Assembly (NCBI RefSeq): GCF_000309385.1
Contig: NZ_JH976537.1
Location: forward strand, 3,518,498-3,582,497
Length of the DNA stretch: 64,000 nt
Reading direction: 5' to 3'
Origin: Nodosilinea nodulosa PCC 7104
GTDB taxonomy: Bacteria > Cyanobacteriota > Cyanobacteriia > Phormidesmidales > Phormidesmidaceae
Below, piece after piece: positions 8,600 through 23,294 of this stretch (its first letter is position 1; every line of letters starts with the position of its first letter). The notes under the pieces were generated by a model. It made no database searches. It was not told the DNA's origin and saw nothing but the letters and a program-made list of their open reading frames with translations. Position numbers and translations under genes: made by a program.

Positions 8600-8776
8600 C
8601 TTAGTGGTGCTGAAAACTTTTTTGAGTCTCATGCTGGATGATCTGGACGGCCAAATCAGCGGCTGAAACCCATTGCCTTCGTTCGTTTGCCTGAAAAACT
8701 CCAAGATTGCTGTCTCGATGAGAATCCTTTATACATAAGGGTTTCAGGAGTTTTCTGCACCACCAAGCAGCTTATC
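8591..8776. mobile_element. 168-bp MITE with 9-bp target-site duplication
   Basis: Element 8600-8767. The ends are inverted repeats: CTTAGTGGTGCTGAAAACT at the left and, reading inward from the right end, CTTGGTGGTGCAGAAAACT, two mismatches in 19. It is flanked by a perfect direct repeat CAGCTTATC (8591-8599 and 8768-8776), the expected target duplication. The interior is non-coding. It was probably mobilised by an IS4-type transposase with matching ends, but the parent is inferred. The right duplication contains the TAA stop (8772-8774 on the minus strand) of the adjacent nuclease gene, so the insertion preserved that reading frame exactly. Confidence 0.8.
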
Positions 8777-9791
8777 TGACACGATACTCTCGGATACGAG
8801 TATTTTCGATCAATAAATGCATAGTAGAAAGCGTAAAAACTTTTCCATCAGTTGCTTGCAGTAATCTCCGCATATCCTCTCGTCGAACCTTGAAACCTCG
8901 ACCAGCAATACATGCAATCACATCATAGTTTTGACCACTTTCGTCACGCAAGGTGCGGAGCCGCTGAACACGTGTTACTTTGTCACGGGCAGTACCGTCG
9001 TCTTCAGTAAGCTTTGCCTCTATCAGAGCTACCGGGTTAAATTCGTCCGGAATAATGAAATCGGGAGCTTGGTCAAAACCATTGATTCTCTCTGCACGCT
9101 TAGTTTCGCGGAAGCTAACCTTTGCAGCGTTAAGAACATCCTTAATAGCGCTTTCAACCACTTCACCAACCAGTTCACTGACAGAATCACGGTGAGATGC
9201 AAACGGACGACCAAGAAAGCGTTCATAGAGTACTACTGGGTAAGGTACACCTAGATCCGCGATAGGCTGAAGACTCTGCAAACCTTCTCGAGTATCGACC
9301 TTGTCCAGTCGGTGAAAAATAGTGGGCACTTCAGTATCAGCCCCTGTCACAAGGGTTTGAACCCCTGCACTAATAAGGGCACGAATTCGCTGGTCTGTTA
9401 GAGAATTGGTTAAGGGTCTTGAGGTTAAAGGTTGTAGACGAACTTTCCGATCAATGGAACGGGCTGCACCTTGACTTACAATGACGTCCGTCATTTCTGT
9501 AGTGATGTAAGCCCATTCTGGTGGTGTGAAGCCAAGAATAGCCCGAAATACAATTAACGAAATAGGGGTTGTGACAACAGCCAGCTCTACTGTTTCAGCA
9601 GTCACATCTTCAAAAGCATTAGTTGATCGCTTTAATGTTTGGTAGCCCTGCTCAAAAACACTGTAATCAATAAATCCGTTACCGCGCGGCATCTCTAAAA
9701 AACTAGATGTTAGCTCAGAGAAAACTTCATCAATTAACGGATCGTAGATAATAGTAGGGACTCGGTAGTTCACCTCAAAACGTGATGGCAT
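8772..9791 (-). CDS. PD-(D/E)XK restriction-endonuclease-like protein
   Basis: 339 residues, last gene of a three-gene minus-strand operon, starting 10 nt after the methyltransferase stop. The C-terminal third contains a PD-(D/E)XK nuclease signature: PDFIIP around residue 244, then a strand ALIEAKL around 256-262 giving the E-x-K pair, followed by a helix with Q/R residues. The N-terminal two thirds (about 1-200) is unrecognised and may bind DNA or a partner. The context next to a DNA methyltransferase and a DUF262 protein supports a role as the cleaving component of a restriction or defence system. The substrate and whether cleavage depends on methylation are unknown. The gene is intact, and the MITE lies directly at its stop codon. 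Confidence 0.75.
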   Translation of the reverse strand: MPSRFEVNYRVPTIIYDPLIDEVFSELTSSFLEMPRGNGFIDYSVFEQGYQTLKRSTNAFEDVTAETVELAVVTTPISLIVFRAILGFTPPEWAYITTEMTDVIVSQGAARSIDRKVRLQPLTSRPLTNSLTDQRIRALISAGVQTLVTGADTEVPTIFHRLDKVDTREGLQSLQPIADLGVPYPVVLYERFLGRPFASHRDSVSELVGEVVESAIKDVLNAAKVSFRETKRAERINGFDQAPDFIIPDEFNPVALIEAKLTEDDGTARDKVTRVQRLRTLRDESGQNYDVIACIAGRGFKVRREDMRRLLQATDGKVFTLSTMHLLIENTRIREYRVR

Positions 9792-9801
9792 CGAGGTCCT
9801 C

Positions 9802-11973
9802 CTAGGTATTTGGCACTACAAATAAGTTAGGGTTGAGTGCTAGCCGAGTTTGGTTAAGTAACTCTAGGGCAGCCTCCACATCCTTAATAGTTGAGACCTC
9901 ATCCATCATTACCTGAATAAGTTCTAGTTTTCGACTCGTCGGTTGGCTGGTATTCCAGTCAGAGTGTAAGTTCCAGATGGTCATCCGAGTGAGATGCCCA
10001 AAGGCAATGCAGCGGATGTCTCCAGCGGTAGGCCTCATACCTGCAGCAACGAGTTCTACCAACTCATGATGAATGATTTGAGCTAAATCAGTAGCGTCTT
10101 TAAATGGCTTAGAACAGGGAGTTATACCCCGATTACGACAGACAAATACCGTATCTACGATGGATGAACCGGTACCATGAATATGTATAGAGCCACTCAT
10201 TTCTGCAGGGCATGGTAGAGAAGCCGAACACGTTAACCCTGCATCTAGGATAGCCATCGCTACAGCTAGATAGGCTTCTTGACGATTATGGTGGTAGGTA
10301 AACACCAGAGGAGCACTTGGTTTAAGAGCTACAGCCATACGGCTATAGACCTCGGCTAGACCCTCAGCAAAATGCACAATACCCCTTTCTGCGGTATCAT
10401 TACCAGTTAGCTCATCACGATGAAGTGTAGTTTTTAAGTCAAGTCCTGGAAAGTCATGTCCCATCAGCTTTCGGAGCCACACATAACAAAAGTGCATTAG
10501 CTCTCCATATTGCACCATGCCATAATAGGGCGGATCGGTGAAGACAGCATCGAGGCTATGTTTTGGTAGATTTAGTGTAGTTGCCGAACCACATCGCAAA
10601 TCTAAAACACGAGCATGGGTTTGAGATTTTTGGGGAGGGTGTACCCCAATCCATTCGCCATCAATCAGCACAGTGCGTTTTTTCTTACCCTTAAAATAAA
10701 CCTCAAAGGGAGCCGTACAGTAATGTTTGGCTTTGGTGTACTTCTCAATGATATTTACCCAACCACCAGAGCCCACTGGTAAGCCGTTATCTTTTCTAAT
10801 ACCCAGAAAATTAGATTCGACCTGAATATACCCAACCGGGAATCCGTGAACTGAAAAGATATCAAGAGACTTCAATGCCATAGTGTCATAGCGACACAGC
10901 AGATTTTGGTACCGTAGTAAGTCAGAAAAATTAGTTGCAAAAGCACGACGTAGTCTATGGTCTTGAATTTGGTCAATAAAGCCTGCAACTGTTTCTAGTG
11001 CTAATAACTGCCGAGGGTTAAACAGCTGATTGAACAGCTTATACCCCCAGCGATGTAACCGATTAGTTTCATCTCCTGCAGGAATATCGTCCTCAGGCAG
11101 GTATGAAGGAGAAAGGCTGAACCATTCATCCCGAGCTTTTTCAACCCTAGCGAGGTCATCGGCATCAGGCTTTTTAAACAGACGCCCTGATTGCCCCTTT
11201 ATGTCAGAGTTATAGTACTCAATGGCAAAGAGGCGATGGGAGGGTGGCCCATTATCGTGGGAAGTAGCCTTGTTGATATGCCCACAGTGGGGACATGGAC
11301 ACTGGCTACGCTGGACGGGACCTTTAGCAGTTAAATTTTTTCCACAAGTACAAAAGCCTGGATGTTTAAGATCGGCAACTTCATTGAGATCACCACAAGC
11401 CGGACATATTAATACATATGTTGGATGTCGTACATCCCTAGCCAAAACATACCCAGGAAAAAGATCAAAACTTTGATGACATGCAGTACAGACTTTAGTC
11501 TTGACCCAAAGAAAGTACTTAACGTCTGCATTCTTACGGCCTGTAATAGGGCATCGCGTTTTGTAAAGTTCGCCAATCTCGTTGCTTAGATGTGCCAAAA
11601 GATAATCTGCTGTTTGCATGTAAGCCGTGAGATCAATCTCAGCTATTTCTTCTTGGACGATCCAGGTGGCCATAGGATTGATATCTGTACCAATTACGTT
11701 GCAGCCTAAGCGGTTGGCTTCGATTAAGGGAGTGCCACCACCCATAAAAGGATCAGCAATAATAAGCCCTTCGAGATTATGGGAATTATAGTAAGTTTGC
11801 TCAACAGGTTTATCAATGAATTCAGCGAGTATGAGGCTACGAAAAAGTGTGCCAGGTCGCCGGGCAAACCATTTATGAACGGCAATGATTGGTCGATAAT
11901 TTTGCTGAACTTGCTTTTCACGCAATGCCAGTCTAGCGGTGAATTCAATATCAAAGTTCGTTTCTATTGGCAT
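9802..11973 (-). CDS. DUF1156-type DNA methyltransferase with internal zinc-ribbon region
   Basis: 723 residues. The N-terminus has the DUF1156-like HKWFARRPG block (about 33-41). A SAM-binding loop variant DPFMGGGTPLIEA (about 74-86) follows, then GTDINPMA. A cysteine-rich segment with several CxxC pairs (CTACH, CPACG, CTCGK, CPHCG) lies at about 155-235 and probably forms two zinc ribbons. The catalytic DPPYYG motif is near residue 478, typical of N6-adenine or N4-cytosine amino-methyltransferases. It probably modifies host DNA to protect it from, or mark it for, the nuclease encoded downstream. DUF1156 methyltransferases are known from several bacterial defence islands, usually with a DUF499 ATPase, which is absent here. 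Confidence 0.85.
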   Translation of the reverse strand: MPIETNFDIEFTARLALREKQVQQNYRPIIAVHKWFARRPGTLFRSLILAEFIDKPVEQTYYNSHNLEGLIIADPFMGGGTPLIEANRLGCNVIGTDINPMATWIVQEEIAEIDLTAYMQTADYLLAHLSNEIGELYKTRCPITGRKNADVKYFLWVKTKVCTACHQSFDLFPGYVLARDVRHPTYVLICPACGDLNEVADLKHPGFCTCGKNLTAKGPVQRSQCPCPHCGHINKATSHDNGPPSHRLFAIEYYNSDIKGQSGRLFKKPDADDLARVEKARDEWFSLSPSYLPEDDIPAGDETNRLHRWGYKLFNQLFNPRQLLALETVAGFIDQIQDHRLRRAFATNFSDLLRYQNLLCRYDTMALKSLDIFSVHGFPVGYIQVESNFLGIRKDNGLPVGSGGWVNIIEKYTKAKHYCTAPFEVYFKGKKKRTVLIDGEWIGVHPPQKSQTHARVLDLRCGSATTLNLPKHSLDAVFTDPPYYGMVQYGELMHFCYVWLRKLMGHDFPGLDLKTTLHRDELTGNDTAERGIVHFAEGLAEVYSRMAVALKPSAPLVFTYHHNRQEAYLAVAMAILDAGLTCSASLPCPAEMSGSIHIHGTGSSIVDTVFVCRNRGITPCSKPFKDATDLAQIIHHELVELVAAGMRPTAGDIRCIAFGHLTRMTIWNLHSDWNTSQPTSRKLELIQVMMDEVSTIKDVEAALELLNQTRLALNPNLFVVPNT

Positions 11974-12015
11974 ATCTAGATAGGTATAAGAGCTCGTATA
12001 TAAAAAATCAAAAGA

Positions 12016-13815
12016 TTACGAGCGATTAAATAACTCATGCACAGACATTATCTTTTTGCCTTTCGCTAATTCTGTAGACGAGCCATTTCGGTAAAAGGCA
12101 TCATCTCCCACATAAGAAATTCCAGTTTGAGCAGGTATAGTTATTCGGACAACTGAGAAAACTTGATGAGCTTTTGCTATCTTGACAGTATCAAACTTTG
12201 TTAATACCTGGGTTTTAACAGGTTCAGAAAGCCCTGAATTTCTGATTGAATTAAGCAAAATGTCGATATATTGCTCAATACTAACACTAAGTGACTTAGC
12301 TTCTCTATCAATACCAACAATGTATCTGCCATTTATTTCATATGGTTCAATCTGGTCAAGCACCTTGACTCTCTCAGCGTCTTTTTTATTATCTGCAACG
12401 CCAACGAATAGATATCCATCTCCGTCAGGACCAACATTGGCAATACCACATATTGTTTGTAGAATTCTCTGTAAAAGGTCCTGATCTAAGTCTCTTTCGT
12501 TTGAAAGGCGTAATAAGCCCTGCTTACACTCGTAACGGGACGTTTCTATTAAGGATCGCCTAATAGAGTTTTCTAAGTCTAAAGCCAAGCTCGGTCCATG
12601 CCTGAGAATGGATGGCTCTTTTTTGACAAAGAATTCATCTACCAAGCCTTTGACCTTGTTGATGTTATTTTTCCTGTCTCTAACATTAACGGCTTTTGAA
12701 GTCTGCTTGAGGCTGGTATGCACATTATTTAGCGCTTCCATAATTCCTTGTGGATCAATAGGGGTTCTCTCCTGGTGAACAATTAAGTCGAAGAAGGCCA
12801 TGAAAATAGCATAAAAAGCAGTTTTTATAGGGTTTCCTCCAGCATTAGGATGGACTACTCGACGCAAAATATTTGATTGATCGCTATATGTTTCTATGAC
12901 TTCTCTCAGCACGGAAAAAGTTGCCTTTATGTCATACAGAAGACGATCGGATGTGTAGCGAGCAAGAGCATTCTCTAAATTTTTGAATTCAGCCGTGCTT
13001 AAGTCATATAGTTTATCTAATCGTTCACGACTATATGCTAAAGGCTCACCGAGTAAAATAGATGCACAAATATCAGCAATCATTTGCTCATCCTCACTGT
13101 CCCTTAACTGTGAGACAGTAAGAATTCCTTGTTTACACCACAAGATATCTTCTGCATTTAATCCGTATCCATGGTGTCTCTGCTTTGAGTCAATGCTAAT
13201 CTCAGGCATGTTGACTAATAGCATTAATTCTTTGGAGGAATCACCTCGTAACTCAGAGGCAATTTTCCTTACAGTATCAGCGAAGGGCGCTACAACACCC
13301 GCCTGTCGTTTTTCCTGGAAACTCAACTGCTTGCCATTGGAATTAATTCTTCCAAAAACATCTGTGATTTCCTCTTCCGTTGTTGCCGGATAAATAGTAA
13401 CAGCTAACTGATAATCAATTATCTTTGCACATTCGGCCAGAGATAGTAGTTTTTTCTCGCCATCCAATTCTTCTATAACGCCTGTTTCCAACAATTCTTT
13501 TGCATAAGAGAAGTGCTGAATGTCAAAGTAACGATCGTCATCTAGCGGGAAGAAATTTTCAATAAAAGTGAATATAGCATTAAACCTTTGCATCCCATCC
13601 ATTATTTCGTAGACACCAGATTTATGAATCTGAGATCTTGAAGCGAGAAGAATCAATGGAATCGGATACCCTTTTAATATACTATCTAGAAGCTTCACTT
13701 TCTCGGCTTGAGTCCAGACCAGCTTTCTTTGATATCGGCGATTTACGAGAAGCTTCTGACTTCTGTAAAGACGATATGCTTCGCTGATCGGCATACCTCT
13801 TGGAGTAATGCTCAT
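12016..13815 (-). CDS. DUF262 (GmrS/ParB-like) protein fused to a Schlafen AlbA_2 domain
   Basis: 599 residues, first gene of the minus-strand operon, 42 nt before the methyltransferase. The N-terminal DUF262 domain shows the NRRYQRKLVW block and the DGMQRFNAI motif (about 73-81), a variant of the DGQQR nucleotide-hydrolysis signature of the GmrS/ParB superfamily. FGRINSNGKQLSFQE follows at about 155-170. The C-terminal part has a Schlafen-type AlbA_2 domain, with YECKQG near residue 428 and GIANVG...YLFVGVAD shortly after, known in putative nucleic-acid or nucleotide-binding regulators. DUF262 proteins such as GmrSD and BrxU are nuclease or NTPase components of anti-phage systems. The DUF262-AlbA_2 fusion next to a methyltransferase and nuclease is unusual. 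Confidence 0.85.
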   Translation of the reverse strand: MSITPRGMPISEAYRLYRSQKLLVNRRYQRKLVWTQAEKVKLLDSILKGYPIPLILLASRSQIHKSGVYEIMDGMQRFNAIFTFIENFFPLDDDRYFDIQHFSYAKELLETGVIEELDGEKKLLSLAECAKIIDYQLAVTIYPATTEEEITDVFGRINSNGKQLSFQEKRQAGVVAPFADTVRKIASELRGDSSKELMLLVNMPEISIDSKQRHHGYGLNAEDILWCKQGILTVSQLRDSEDEQMIADICASILLGEPLAYSRERLDKLYDLSTAEFKNLENALARYTSDRLLYDIKATFSVLREVIETYSDQSNILRRVVHPNAGGNPIKTAFYAIFMAFFDLIVHQERTPIDPQGIMEALNNVHTSLKQTSKAVNVRDRKNNINKVKGLVDEFFVKKEPSILRHGPSLALDLENSIRRSLIETSRYECKQGLLRLSNERDLDQDLLQRILQTICGIANVGPDGDGYLFVGVADNKKDAERVKVLDQIEPYEINGRYIVGIDREAKSLSVSIEQYIDILLNSIRNSGLSEPVKTQVLTKFDTVKIAKAHQVFSVVRITIPAQTGISYVGDDAFYRNGSSTELAKGKKIMSVHELFNRS

Positions 13816-19500: not shown

Positions 19501-19899
19501 ATGAGTGAGCTACCGTCCGAGCCAACTCCAGATGAATTTGATAATGAATCTCAAGACGAAGTCCAACCCGACGTACCTAATAAGCAAAAGCTTGATTTAT
19601 GCCTCCTGAAGCAACTATTGTGTAGAAAGATACAAAGATTTGGTACTGTGCAAGTTTTTCATCAAATTTATCAAGGAGATTGTCTATTGGATCCCCAAAT
19701 AGACAGGGTAAGTATTCGCTACGACTCAAGCAACATAATCTATATTCTTGCTTACACAGAAGAAAAAGTAGATACACCTTCCCAGTTTTTGGGTGTCCTT
19801 AAAATTAGAGATAGAAAGAAGGACAAGCTGTCTTTGACAAATCTAAGACTAGAGCAAAGACTAATTCGTGAAAGATCTAAAACAATTGAACCTTATTAG
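19501..19899 (+). CDS. tnsB: TnsB C-terminal fragment (isolated)
   Basis: 132 residues. The stretch KLDLCLLKQ...RKIQRFGTVQVFHQIYQGD, then VSIRYDSSNIIYILAYTEE, corresponds to the Mu-transposase-type C-terminal beta-barrel of V-K TnsB (pattern RDLDICLMKQ...RTVQRGGCLQFQNLMYRGE, then VNLRFDPRDITTILVYRQE). The rve/DDE catalytic domain normally preceding it is absent: the frame is closed by a stop about 65 bp upstream and no catalytic fragment is seen. It has its own ATG with an AGG about 9 bases upstream, so it may be a small expressed protein and not merely a fossil. In CASTs the TnsB C-terminus is the part that contacts TnsC. The identification is from recalled family sequence. Confidence 0.75.
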   Translation: MSELPSEPTPDEFDNESQDEVQPDVPNKQKLDLCLLKQLLCRKIQRFGTVQVFHQIYQGDCLLDPQIDRVSIRYDSSNIIYILAYTEEKVDTPSQFLGVLKIRDRKKDKLSLTNLRLEQRLIRERSKTIEPY

Positions 19900-20211: not shown

Positions 20212-22086
20212 ATGAGCAATATGAGAACCTCTGAGTGCCGGTTGGTTTCTAGCTATTGGGAACGCCCCTCAAAAGCCAAACCTGACTCTATTGCGTTAGC
20301 CAGCGACGACACGAAGGCATACTTGTGGAGCTTATCTGTAGGAAGTACCCACCTTTGTCAAGAACTTAATAAGCGCATATCTAACCATGAGCTTTTTGAG
20401 GACTGGGTTCAGAACGCCGAAATACCTGATGCAGAAATCAAAAAGATCTGGAAGGAATTAAAAGAAGGAGAAATGTTCAAACATATTCCAGAAAGATTTT
20501 GTCGCTCTGGGTTGCTTACCATTCAGAATATTTATTCAAGCTGGCTTTCCGGCCGGAGAAAGCTGCAAGACAGATTAAAAGGCTTGGAGTATTGGCTCAG
20601 CATCGTCAAAAGCGATATTGAGCTAGTTTCAGAAAGTGGCCTAGATATAGAAGAGATACAAGTTAGGGCAGAAGAAATAATTAATGATTTACAAGCCGAA
20701 GCTCAAGCGAGTTCAGACTCCCAAAAATAGGCATCAAGTAGTCTCATCGGCTCCTTGTTCAAACTTTATGATGAAACCGAACAAAGTACGTCGCGAGATA
20801 AGGCAGCAATTATTTATCTAATTAAGAATGGGTGCAAGATTCCTTCTTGTCAGGAAAATCCAAAAAAGTTTGAAGAGAATCGTCTTAACAAACAAAAATC
20901 GATAGAACGAATAGAGAGAAAATTGGAAGGCAAGACGCCTAAAATCCGAAAATTTCCACTGTACCCAATTGCATTTTATAGCAGCGATGATCTGCGGTGG
21001 TCTCTTATAAAGCGAGAAGATCCTAAGACGAAGGATATCAAAGAGCGCATCTTTGTAACTTTTAAGGGTATGGGAAGAAACCGGATTTTTGAAATCTGCT
21101 GTGGTCGTCGCCAGCTTCCAATATTCCAAATCTTTCTTGAGGATTGGCAGCTTTATCAGGGAAATGAGAAAGAGTATTCCCTGGACATGGTTTTGTTAAG
21201 ATCAGCCTCTTTAGTTTGGCGTAAGTGTAAAGAGAGCTCTTCTAAAGAGGCGGCCAATAGTTTAATGGATGCTTATGAACCTTATCTCAAAGTTACTATT
21301 GACATAGATAATCTGACTACTGAAGGGGCAGGGGTGATTCGTGATGAGAAGTTAAAAGACGTAGAGCGACGTATTCAAAACTACGGGAAATTAGCTGAAG
21401 ATAAAGACTTAACCCCAAACCAAAAGACGAACTTGAAGCAGTTAAAGAGCAGAGAAACTGGCTTAGGCAATTGCTTTCCTCGCCCATCTAAGCCTGCCTA
21501 TGAAGGGAATGCCAACATAGCCATAGGAATCAGCTTTTGCCGACAAAAAGTAATAGCCGCAGCTATAGTTGACCTTAAAAAGGGCAAAGCTATTGTTTAT
21601 AGAACTGCTCAGCAGCTTCTCGGCAAGGATTACTCGCAAATTCCTGAATATCGCCACAGACAGCGAACTAATCGTAACAAACGACGTAAGCTTCAGTTGC
21701 AAGGAAAGAATGCTTCAATCACGGAAGCAGGCCAAGGAGTTCACCTGAATAGGGTTTTAGCCAAAGCTTTTGTCAGACTAGCTGAAGAGTACAACGCTGG
21801 AGTGATTGTTTTACCTAAAACTGATGGACTTCGAGAAATCATTCAAAGTGGGATTGAGGCTATGGCTGAACAGAAATATCCAAAGGACAAGTCACGCCAA
21901 AGGCAGTTTCTTAAGGAATACCGTATCAGTGTGCACAACTGGGATTATTTCCGTCTTAGGCGATCTATTGAAGAGCGTGCGGCTAAGGTCGGGATTCCTG
22001 TGAAGGTAGGCTGCCAGCCATCAAAGGGATATCTCCCGCAAAAAGCTCAACAAGTTGCTCTATCTGTCTTAGAGCGCGTGGTTTAG
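20212..22086 (+). pseudogene. cas12k: cas12k (C2c5), interrupted by one in-frame TAG
   Basis: Cas12k is the catalytically inactive Cas12 effector that guides V-K transposition. Frame 20212-20730 encodes the N-terminal 172 residues (ISNHELFEDW, then LKGLEYWLSIVKSDIELV). After the TAG at 20728-20730 the same frame continues to 22086 (FKLYDETEQ...AIIYLIKNGCKI, IFEICCGRRQLPIFQIFLED, FPRPSKPAYEG, YNAGVIVLPKTDGLREIIQS). These blocks match known Cas12k in order, for example SYLLKNGCKL, IFEVYCGNRQLHWFQRFLED and GSIVLPKLGDMREVVQS. Read through, the protein would be about 624 residues, normal for the family. No other frameshift is seen. Either it is a recent one-base pseudogene, or it is expressed in two pieces or by readthrough. 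A TTG at 20755 has no ribosome site. Confidence 0.9.
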
Positions 22087-22299
22087 GTCGACAGCCCTAA
22101 TCTTGTACCTTGAAAACCAAATATTGATTTATCGCGCCTCCGCTCATGCCCGAAGGAGCCTCTGAGCCGGAGGAAATGGACCTCTTTTCTACCGCAAGGT
22201 AGTTCTTTCCAGTCCTTGGTAGAAGTGCTTCCTTGTGAAGTCTGCCCGCCCCTGCTCTGCTGCCTCTTGTGGGTAAGGAAACTTACTGTCAAGGGGGAT
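22087..22299. other. Spacer between cas12k and tracrRNA
   Basis: About 210 bp, expected to hold the tracrRNA promoter. A CTTTTCTACCGCAAGGTAG hairpin-like stretch lies at about 22183-22202. No gene is supported. Confidence 0.4.
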
Positions 22300-22486
22300 T
22301 AAGTCATGCTGGTGAAGTTGCTCTCATCTAGTATGGCGTAGGTCGCGCCCATGTACCAGGGGTAAAGCTCTAATTTTTTGGAGTGTATAGCTCTTCTTAG
22401 CGAGAGTGAGATTATCTCAGTGGCAGCTACCACCCAATGCTGAACTAGGCTTTGGTTCGCCTAAGCTTAGGGATTATCCACTACTT
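22300..22486 (+). ncRNA. Type V-K tracrRNA (approximate limits)
   Basis: Located between cas12k and the CRISPR array, as in known V-K CASTs. Two conserved-looking blocks resemble the Scytonema tracrRNA: GTCATGCTGGTGAAGTTGC (about 22303-22321) and GGCAGCTACCACCCAATGCTG (about 22422-22442). A TAGGC-loop-GCCTA hairpin (22446-22463) precedes TATCCACT (22475-22482), which is perfectly complementary to AGTGGATA in the CRISPR repeats (for example 22725-22732). That is the expected anti-repeat. The exact 5' and 3' ends are not determined. Confidence 0.7.
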
Positions 22487-22700
22487 CCTTCACGTTCCTG
22501 GCAAACCCAAGCAGGCTCAAAAATCCCTAGAGGGTTTGCCAGGATTGTTAAAACTCTTATCTAGCAAGGGTTTACGGCTAGATGTGCTCAGGCTTGCTCT
22601 AACGCTTTCTTTGCGAAAGGCTCAAATCTTGAGTACCTGACTGACCTTTGCCAAAAGCTGTCCTGAAACGCAGGCAAAGCAGCCACTTGAGCCCTCAGGG

Positions 22701-22957
22701 GCTGCTTCTAGCTTTCCTCCCATGAGTGGATAGAAAGAGCACAACACACCCACTTCTAAGGACACAGACCCATGTTGCTTTTAGCTTTCCTCCTATGAGT
22801 GGATAGAAAGCTAGAGCGCCATCAGTTGCTCTATGTGGCCCTCACTGTTGCTTCTAGCTTCCCTCCCGAGAAGGATACAGAAAGGCGAAGGCTACGGGGC
22901 TCACGGGACTAGACATACGAGTTGCTTTTAGCTTCCTTATCGAGAGAGGATAAAAAA
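22701..22957 (+). CRISPR. Type V-K CRISPR array, four repeats decaying toward the right
   Basis: Repeats begin GTTGCTT(T/C)TAGCTT and end GTGGATAGAAAG, about 37 nt: 22701-22737, 22774-22810, 22847-22884 and 22921-22957. The three spacers (22738-22773, 22811-22846, 22885-22920) are each exactly 36 nt. Repeats 1 and 2 are nearly identical and keep AGTGGATA for tracrRNA pairing. Repeats 3 and 4 are degenerate (GAAGGATACAGAAAG and AGAGGATAAAAAAC), as is common at the distal end of an array. Spacer targets are unknown. Confidence 0.85.
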
Positions 22958-22969
22958 CCTTGAGCTTAA

Positions 22970-23013
22970 GTTGCAAATAGTGGATAGAAAGGAGCACTTG
23001 TATGGCATATACG
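22970..23013 (+). CRISPR. Delocalised homing crRNA unit targeting tRNA-Ala
   Basis: A shortened repeat (22970-22991) keeps the 5' GTTGC and the 3' AGTGGATAGAAAG but lacks the centre. The spacer that follows starts GAGCACTTGTATGGCAT (22992-23008) and matches the tRNA-Ala sequence GAGCACTTGCATGGCAT at 16 of 17 positions. In the tRNA gene the protospacer (23273 downward, minus strand) is preceded by GGTA, a GTN PAM. This is the arrangement described for V-K CAST homing to tRNA genes. The spacer 3' limit is approximate. Confidence 0.85.
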
Positions 23014-23040
23014 GCACAGTTGCGTGCTTACAGCCATAAA

Positions 23041-23069
23041 GTTGCTTATTTTGATACAGGATAGCTAAG
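23041..23069 (+). repeat. Possible further degenerate repeat
   Basis: GTTGCTTATTTTGATACAGG ATAGCTAAG shares the 5' GTTGCTT and the GGATAG near the 3' end with the CRISPR repeats. It may be a fossil repeat or a TnsB-binding motif. Spacing from the homing unit is not that of a normal array. Confidence 0.35.
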
Positions 23070-23178
23070 CGGCATGCAGTATTTTTCTCTCACAAGAGCC
23101 ATTTAATTAGCAAACGTTTTTAGTACATTTGACCTGACGAGGCTGAAACGTACAGAATTACGTGCCATCGCAGCATTA

Positions 23179-23214
23179 GTTGCTTAAACACAACAAATAT
23201 CTGCTTAATGGACA
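23179..23214 (-). repeat. tRNA-proximal terminus of the CAST
   Basis: Read on the minus strand the end starts TGTCCATTAAGCAG at 23214. TGCTTAA occurs twice near this end (23181-23187 and 23202-23208), each followed within a few bases by an ACA, as expected for tandem TnsB sites. The end lies 59 bp downstream of the GTA PAM and 7 bp beyond the tRNA 3' end. A 5-bp target duplication would be AATTA (23215-23219); the distal copy was not found. Confidence 0.6.
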
Positions 23215-23221
23215 AATTAAA

Positions 23222-23294
23222 TGGAGCTAAGCGGGTTCGAACCGCTGACCCCTTGCATGCCATGCAAGTGCTCTACCAGCTGAGCTATAGCCCC
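23222..23294 (-). tRNA. tRNA-Ala(GGC)
   Basis: 73 nt without encoded CCA. It starts GGGGCTATAGCTCAG and has a D-arm with GGTAGAGC, an anticodon stem CTTGC/GCAAG enclosing loop ATGGCAT (anticodon GGC), and a T-arm GGTTCGAACC. The acceptor stem closes with the 3' AGCTCC plus discriminator A. It is the target of the CAST homing spacer and marks the island border. Confidence 0.95.

Follow-up and report, generated by a model that had tools for sequence, protein, structure and literature searches.

The question raised by this locus is whether a short repeat and spacer, lying outside a CRISPR array and next to a tRNA-Ala(GGC) gene, guided into that site the transposon whose end is found there, and whether it could still do so. 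The window, that is, the whole stretch of 64,000 nucleotides analysed, corresponds to C1:3518498-3582497, on one of the two contigs of the Nodosilinea nodulosa PCC 7104 genome. We are highly confident that this repeat and spacer form a homing unit, directed to tRNA-Ala(GGC), that belongs to a type V-K CAST. With a stop codon in frame in its cas12k, the element probably has little or no mobility today. Delocalised crRNAs of V-K CASTs are said to have been described by Saito et al. in 2021, and RNA-guided V-K homing reportedly by Hsieh and Peters in 2021; the homing itself is already described, and what is new here is a divergent branch with an interrupted cas12k. The features are given below in window coordinates, or for the right-end genes in those of stretch L007, which holds the right end.

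1-23214, no strand: portion of the element within the window; TIR and TSD at both ends of the element
19501-19899, plus strand: TnsB relic of another V-K lineage, profile positions 406-507 (PADLOC TnsB_V-K, E 8e-13)
20212-22086, plus strand: cas12k, as two collinear in-frame Cas12k matches with one TAG at 20728-20730
22087-22700, plus strand: putative tracrRNA region, with the anti-repeat TATCCACT at 22475-22482
22701-22957, plus strand: CRISPR array of two intact and two degenerate repeats and three 36-nt spacers, recognised in the sequence by its repeat cores
22970-22991, plus strand: truncated homing repeat R*, GTTGCAAATAGTGGATAGAAAG, as read from the sequence
22992-23008, plus strand: 17-nt homing spacer GAGCACTTGTATGGCAT, directly 3' of R*
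23205-23214, minus strand: left-end TIR TGTCCATTAA, 10 bp, identical to the right end at L007:15490
23215-23219, no strand: TSD AATTA, with the same 5 bp at L007:15485-15489
23222-23294, minus strand: tRNA-Ala(GGC), the attachment-site gene (ARAGORN; Rfam 65.2 bits)
23257-23273, minus strand: protospacer inside the tRNA-Ala(GGC) gene, with the PAM GGTA at 23274-23277
L007:15711-17642: tnsB (V-K model TnsB, 8e-103)
L007:17636-18580: tnsC (V-K model TnsC, 1e-29)
L007:18607-19125: tniQ (V-K model TniQ, 2e-55)

Anchor spacers of V-K CASTs, in the accessible part of PMC9938897, consist of a truncated repeat and a 17-nt spacer and use a GTN PAM, with the protospacer 46-82 nt from the left end in all cases but one and the tRNA gene directed toward the left end. 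The available part of PMC12719977 gives the homing guide as a 13-nt repeat plus a 17-nt spacer, and according to the accessible text of the review PMC11406308 such guides can explain nearly all natural V-K insertions. So far as these texts extend, our locus has the same form: a truncated repeat and its 17-nt spacer stand apart from the array, close to the left end, and the protospacer lies in a tRNA gene, with a GTA PAM that satisfies GTN and a distance within the 46-82 nt range. The spacer agrees with the tRNA gene, read from 23273 to 23257, at 16 of 17 positions; position 10 differs, with T in the spacer and C in the tRNA, which is an rU:dG wobble between the U of the crRNA and the G of the target strand. 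The preliminary description had these letters and coordinates right, as well as the GGTA ahead of the protospacer and the 59-base distance from the PAM to the TGT at 23214, a spacing 1 bp under the 60-66 bp that it quoted but inside the published 46-82. Its term intact for the homing match applies to the guide and the target, and is restricted to these because cas12k has the in-frame TAG.

Searched through the window on both strands with up to 3 mismatches, the 17-mer finds itself and tRNA-Ala alone. Over the 6.89-Mb genome the same tolerance gives 12 places (itself with 0 mismatches, tRNA-Ala with 1, one place with 2 and nine with 3) versus 5 for the reversed-pattern control, so besides the spacer itself and tRNA-Ala no place exceeds 15/17, and no equally good match next to an insertion, which the preliminary description had named as evidence against it, is found elsewhere. 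Five of the 12 loci, among them the one with 2 mismatches, were scanned for tRNAs, and the tRNA-Ala locus alone has one. With uniform base use assumed, about 0.04 places with at most one mismatch are expected by chance in the whole genome, and the tRNA-Ala match additionally has a PAM and adjoins the element end. We also considered the mismatch as a trace of a former host's tRNA and found no support for this: with any base allowed at position 10 the 17-mer occurs at 44 places in 388 genomes, of which the element's own copy alone has T and all the others have C or A.

The whole element spans C1:3513990-3541711, a length of 27,722 bp. Its right end, at C1:3513990, lies outside the window, 4.5 kb to the left, and together with tnsB-tnsC-tniQ it takes up the interval from 0.9 to 4.5 kb left of window position 1. 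The TIR reads inward from both ends, placing the TGT ends as inverted repeats, and a 5/5 duplication flanking them has a chance expectation of about 0.001. Empty sites were sought with the right flank (the tRNA and the Raf1 gene) as query. A match is present in 56 of 57 genomes, our own among them, which is no surprise for a query made of a tRNA and a conserved Raf1. Thirty loci were fetched, and element sequence at tRNA-Ala/Raf1 is present in our own one only and in none of the 29 from relatives. The left flank is seen within 1.5 kb in 9 of the 28 relatives' loci that have the tRNA (L052 is without it); in 6 of these 9 it is separated from the tRNA by 9-89 bp, and in the other 3 by 232, 633 and 640 bp. 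Twelve longer stretches (3 to 20 kb) contain the left flank in 5 cases, at 9, 1,709, 1,824, 17,555 and 18,527 bp, and lack it in 7, the 9-bp case being the same locus as one in the 28-locus set. With left-flank distances running from 9 bp to 18.5 kb, the site is therefore variable among relatives. The search of related genomes for empty sites, which the preliminary description had suggested, thus gives tRNA-Ala(GGC) sites free of the element, and no homology running uninterrupted across 23214 was found in these genomes. An exact joined-flank empty site is absent from all the sequences compared because the shared left flank is separated from the right end by 3.6 kb more of unshared DNA. This segment (L007:11894-15489) has a trypsin-like peptidase gene inside, is unmatched in the relatives' stretches, and may be an earlier insertion at this tRNA.

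The gene content is that of a V-K CAST, with an interrupted cas12k, tnsB followed by tnsC and tniQ beside the right end and with intact frames, TGT ends with a 5-bp TSD, and an array and putative tracrRNA downstream of cas12k. The layout is likewise that of known V-K CASTs in the published text available to us, with the left end past the tRNA 3' end, the array and tracrRNA upstream of it, and tnsB-tnsC-tniQ at the right end. TnsA has no match among the scanned ORFs; the interval between the right end and tnsB has no ORF of at least 120 aa, and the gap from tnsB to tniQ holds tnsC only. The GxxxxGK[ST] motif is absent from the element's TnsC, and canonical Walker motifs are missing in some V-K TnsC according to the accessible part of PMC11406308. 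The C part of cas12k matches the PADLOC Cas12k model at 1.3e-120. The TAG lies in a poorly conserved linker of variable length among relatives, and by eye no ribosome-binding site is obvious ahead of the second half. The TnsB relic is 56% identical over 108 aa to the TnsB of L090 versus 33% to the element's own TnsB. Within the window the element also holds an ImpB/MucB/SamB-family polymerase gene (456-1259, 267 aa) and, as cargo at 8772-13815, a DUF1156/HmaB-like DNA methylase and a GmrSD-N plus Schlafen-AlbA_2 protein, which are defence-like.

In the mechanism that we propose, the truncated repeat-spacer RNA would be transcribed, pair with the element's tracrRNA and form a complex in which the crRNA would guide Cas12k to the GTA-PAM protospacer in tRNA-Ala(GGC); integration by TniQ, TnsC and TnsB would follow about 60 bp downstream, just past the tRNA 3' end, with a 5-bp duplication, and this very guide would have directed the insertion seen here. 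A promoter and terminator scan of 22050-23220 stayed at chance level.

The array repeats lie at 22701-22737, 22774-22810, 22847-22884 and 22921-22957. The motif AGTGGATA is present in the homing repeat and in array repeats 1 and 2, and is altered in repeats 3 and 4. The tracrRNA is tentatively placed by the anti-repeat column of the alignment described below: TATCCACT is complementary to the homing repeat at 8 of 8 positions and shares its alignment column with the anti-repeats of 27 other elements. The preliminary description correctly saw the motif kept in the homing repeat and lost from the last array repeats, but passed over array repeats 1 and 2, which retain it. The longer selection on homing that it read from this decay is not a specific conclusion here because two array repeats would also pair, as those of no other among 48 arrays do at the anti-repeat site. 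Folding the homing repeat with the tracrRNA region, a check that it had suggested, gave no support, the duplex energy of −12.9 kcal/mol being no better than that of shuffles (mean −14.1 kcal/mol; 228 of 300 as good). The three array spacers had no match when searched against plasmids.

The genome contains one more V-K unit:

L008:13850-17218 (C1:323850-327218): second V-K unit at tRNA-Val(TAC), with an open cas12k, an array with seven recognised repeats, and a left end

Its Cas12k (C1:325302-327218) is the one uninterrupted Cas12k of the genome, and its homing spacer matches tRNA-Val(TAC) at 17/17. The homing-unit architecture is alike in the two, whereas the tRNA-Val unit has a Cas12k of another clade, with the C parts about 33% identical, and another left end. 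A genome profile search found no TnsB or TniQ model matches near it, and the TnsB, TnsC and TniQ of our element as queries found nothing in L008 or the stretch L009; the TniB model was uninformative, since it matched 13 of 14 controls too. No convincing right end was found in the 60 kb searched, and the sole match to its left-end repeat with at most 3 mismatches in the needed orientation, at C1:293483, is on the wrong side of the tRNA. The genome search returned one V-K-like TnsB with TniQ. With an open cas12k at tRNA-Val, beside which no tns genes were found, and tnsBCQ accompanied by an interrupted cas12k at tRNA-Ala, an open Cas12k and an intact V-K tnsBCQ therefore coexist in different elements. 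That the TnsB of our element mobilises the tRNA-Val unit was considered and looks unlikely because the ends of the two elements differ. Another Tn7-like set, with TnsB-, TniB- and TniQ-type matches, is found on the second contig (G000:C2:383708-386558) and is distant from V-K.

How regularly such units occur was surveyed with the C part of the element's Cas12k as query against 388 genomes of the class at E 1e-30. Matches are present in 69 of the 388, at 98 listed places, of which 80 were taken (82 stretches); the 18 left out include many short fragments or second copies. A pattern search with the Cas12k C part matched 34 stretches, none of them confirmed, whereas the protein search of the 388 genomes did give relatives. 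One of the 82 stretches is without Cas12k, and among the other 81 a downstream tRNA is present in 61 and not in 20, in some through the contig end. Homing units were recognised by AAG ahead of the spacer, GT in the PAM, at most 4 mismatches, and at most 80 bp from the tRNA. By this definition a repeat-spacer match to the downstream tRNA is found in 57 of the 61 loci, own included, and in none of L136, L159, L166 and L169; since L091 and L175 are one locus, there are 56 distinct loci, some of them near copies. The core of the preliminary description, a delocalised homing crRNA of a V-K CAST, is supported by this survey together with the paired ends and the relatives' loci. Spacer mismatches over the 56 loci number 0 in 38, 1 in 16 and 2 in 2; reduced to 38 distinct spacer-target pairs, the counts are 24, 12 and 2. 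All 16 mismatches of the distinct pairs are at positions 7-15 and none at 1-6, and 9 of the 16 are of the wobble type (7 of these 9 with spacer T against target C). The position-10 wobble of our element is thus ordinary within the surveyed V-K homing spacers. Selection for wobble is not claimed because C-to-T mutation alone could yield spacer T and target C.

Since tRNA genes are common insertion sites, and the left-flank-to-tRNA distance in relatives varies so widely, one could suppose that the element reached tRNA-Ala by another route and that the 17-mer is a coincidence. We regard this as extremely improbable in view of the 0.04 matches expected per genome, the PAM, repeat and spacing that accompany the match here, and the repetition of the arrangement in 56 distinct loci, own included.

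The homing unit of a V-K CAST is therefore the reading we keep, and the issue is its present state. A refinement that does not compete with this reading, and which we consider somewhat probable, is that the unit is a relic: the element would once have homed by means of a functional Cas12k, and decay of cas12k and part of the array would since have immobilised it. The in-frame TAG, the degeneration of two of the four array repeats and the TnsB relic beside cas12k speak for decay; yet there is a single stop in 1.9 kb, in a variable linker, and the tnsBCQ frames, TIRs, TSD and guide-target match are intact. Continued mobility, with Cas12k made as two chains split at the linker, by readthrough, or supplied from the open gene of the tRNA-Val(TAC) unit, seems unlikely to us. 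It would agree with the position of the stop in the linker and with a genome that has one uninterrupted Cas12k and one V-K-like TnsB with TniQ, but the C parts of the two Cas12k share about 33% identity, the units have different left ends, and the second cas12k half lacks an obvious ribosome-binding site.

The branch to which the V-K element at tRNA-Ala belongs is divergent. The C part of its Cas12k has 30-42% identity to the matches in the 388 sampled genomes, and in a FastTree of 70 proteins this Cas12k groups with L084 (support 1.0), with weak deeper placement (0.63). It further differs from known V-K CASTs by the TIR TGTCCATTAA, by the TAG in cas12k, and by array repeats that are predicted to pair perfectly with the anti-repeat. 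Relatives of its TnsB over most of the gene, at 59-61%, are found in three genomes (G231, G247 and G187), each with TGTCCATTAA upstream of tnsB, and TnsB fragments at 56-75% in two more (G269 and G141). The G247 element (contigs C58 and C82; L084 and L216) shares with ours a sister Cas12k, a TnsB at 60%, the same TIR, a tRNA-Ala target, and the last 13 nt of R*, AGTGGATAGAAAG, identical in L084. It differs in having an open cas12k, a spacer matching tRNA-Ala(CGC) at 17/17, the TSD GTACA and a spacing of 69 bp, and an automated repeat scan recognised no array in it. Because its ends lie on two contigs, C82 and C58, the shared TIR and TSD are what suggest that they belong to one apparently complete element. 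Two other places are of note. In G231:C68 (L214/L215), a second, more distant V-K tnsB and tniQ form a tandem with a tnsB-tnsC-truncated tniQ set of the type found in our element, with a tRNA-Gln gene about 0.4 kb away, and L090 (G007:C262) has a contiguous tnsB-tnsC-tniQ-cas12k with no downstream tRNA found in that stretch.

The surveyed elements also allow the homing repeat to be compared with the tracrRNA. Taking the 8 nt preceding GAAAG as the homing core, an exact complement is present in the own tracrRNA region of 28 of 56 elements versus 46 of 2,940 pairings with different-core elements. Of the 48 elements with a recognised array, 26 have an exact complement to the homing repeat in the tracrRNA region, and 2, namely ours and L157, have one to an array repeat anywhere in that region. 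In an alignment of the tracrRNA regions that was built without regard to repeats, and is readable for 54 of the 56 (not for L104 and L147), all 28 perfect anti-repeats, with 12 different cores among them, fall in a single column. The homing repeat makes a mean of 6.96 Watson-Crick pairs of 8, versus 5.33 for shuffled assignment (top of 1,000 shuffles, 5.85), values which are uncorrected for relatedness. Set against the best array repeat in the 48 arrays, the homing repeat is better in 32, equal in 12 and worse in 4. The homing repeat covaries with the tracrRNA anti-repeat across the 54 elements, kinship being uncorrected. One view, which we hold as evenly poised, is that V-K CASTs separate homing guides from array guides via the tracrRNA, with the homing repeat coevolving with the anti-repeat and the array repeats staying mismatched. 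The single exception is this element, whose array repeats share the homing core and which alone of the 48 has an array repeat pairing 8/8 at the anti-repeat site. No mention of such covariation was found in the accessible portions of the literature searched, a set without Saito 2021 and Hsieh and Peters 2021.

The locus offers a fully delimited natural V-K insertion, with both ends, TSD, guide, target and spacing, in a divergent branch that has one other apparently complete element in the 388-genome sample, and the ends and guide of this branch are therefore testable. In the 38 distinct spacer-target pairs of the survey, all the homing-spacer mismatches fall outside positions 1-6. If homing repeats are indeed kept matched and array repeats mismatched, the homing crRNA would be the stronger tracrRNA partner, and the survey thus provides a testable rule for how V-K CASTs may rank their guides.
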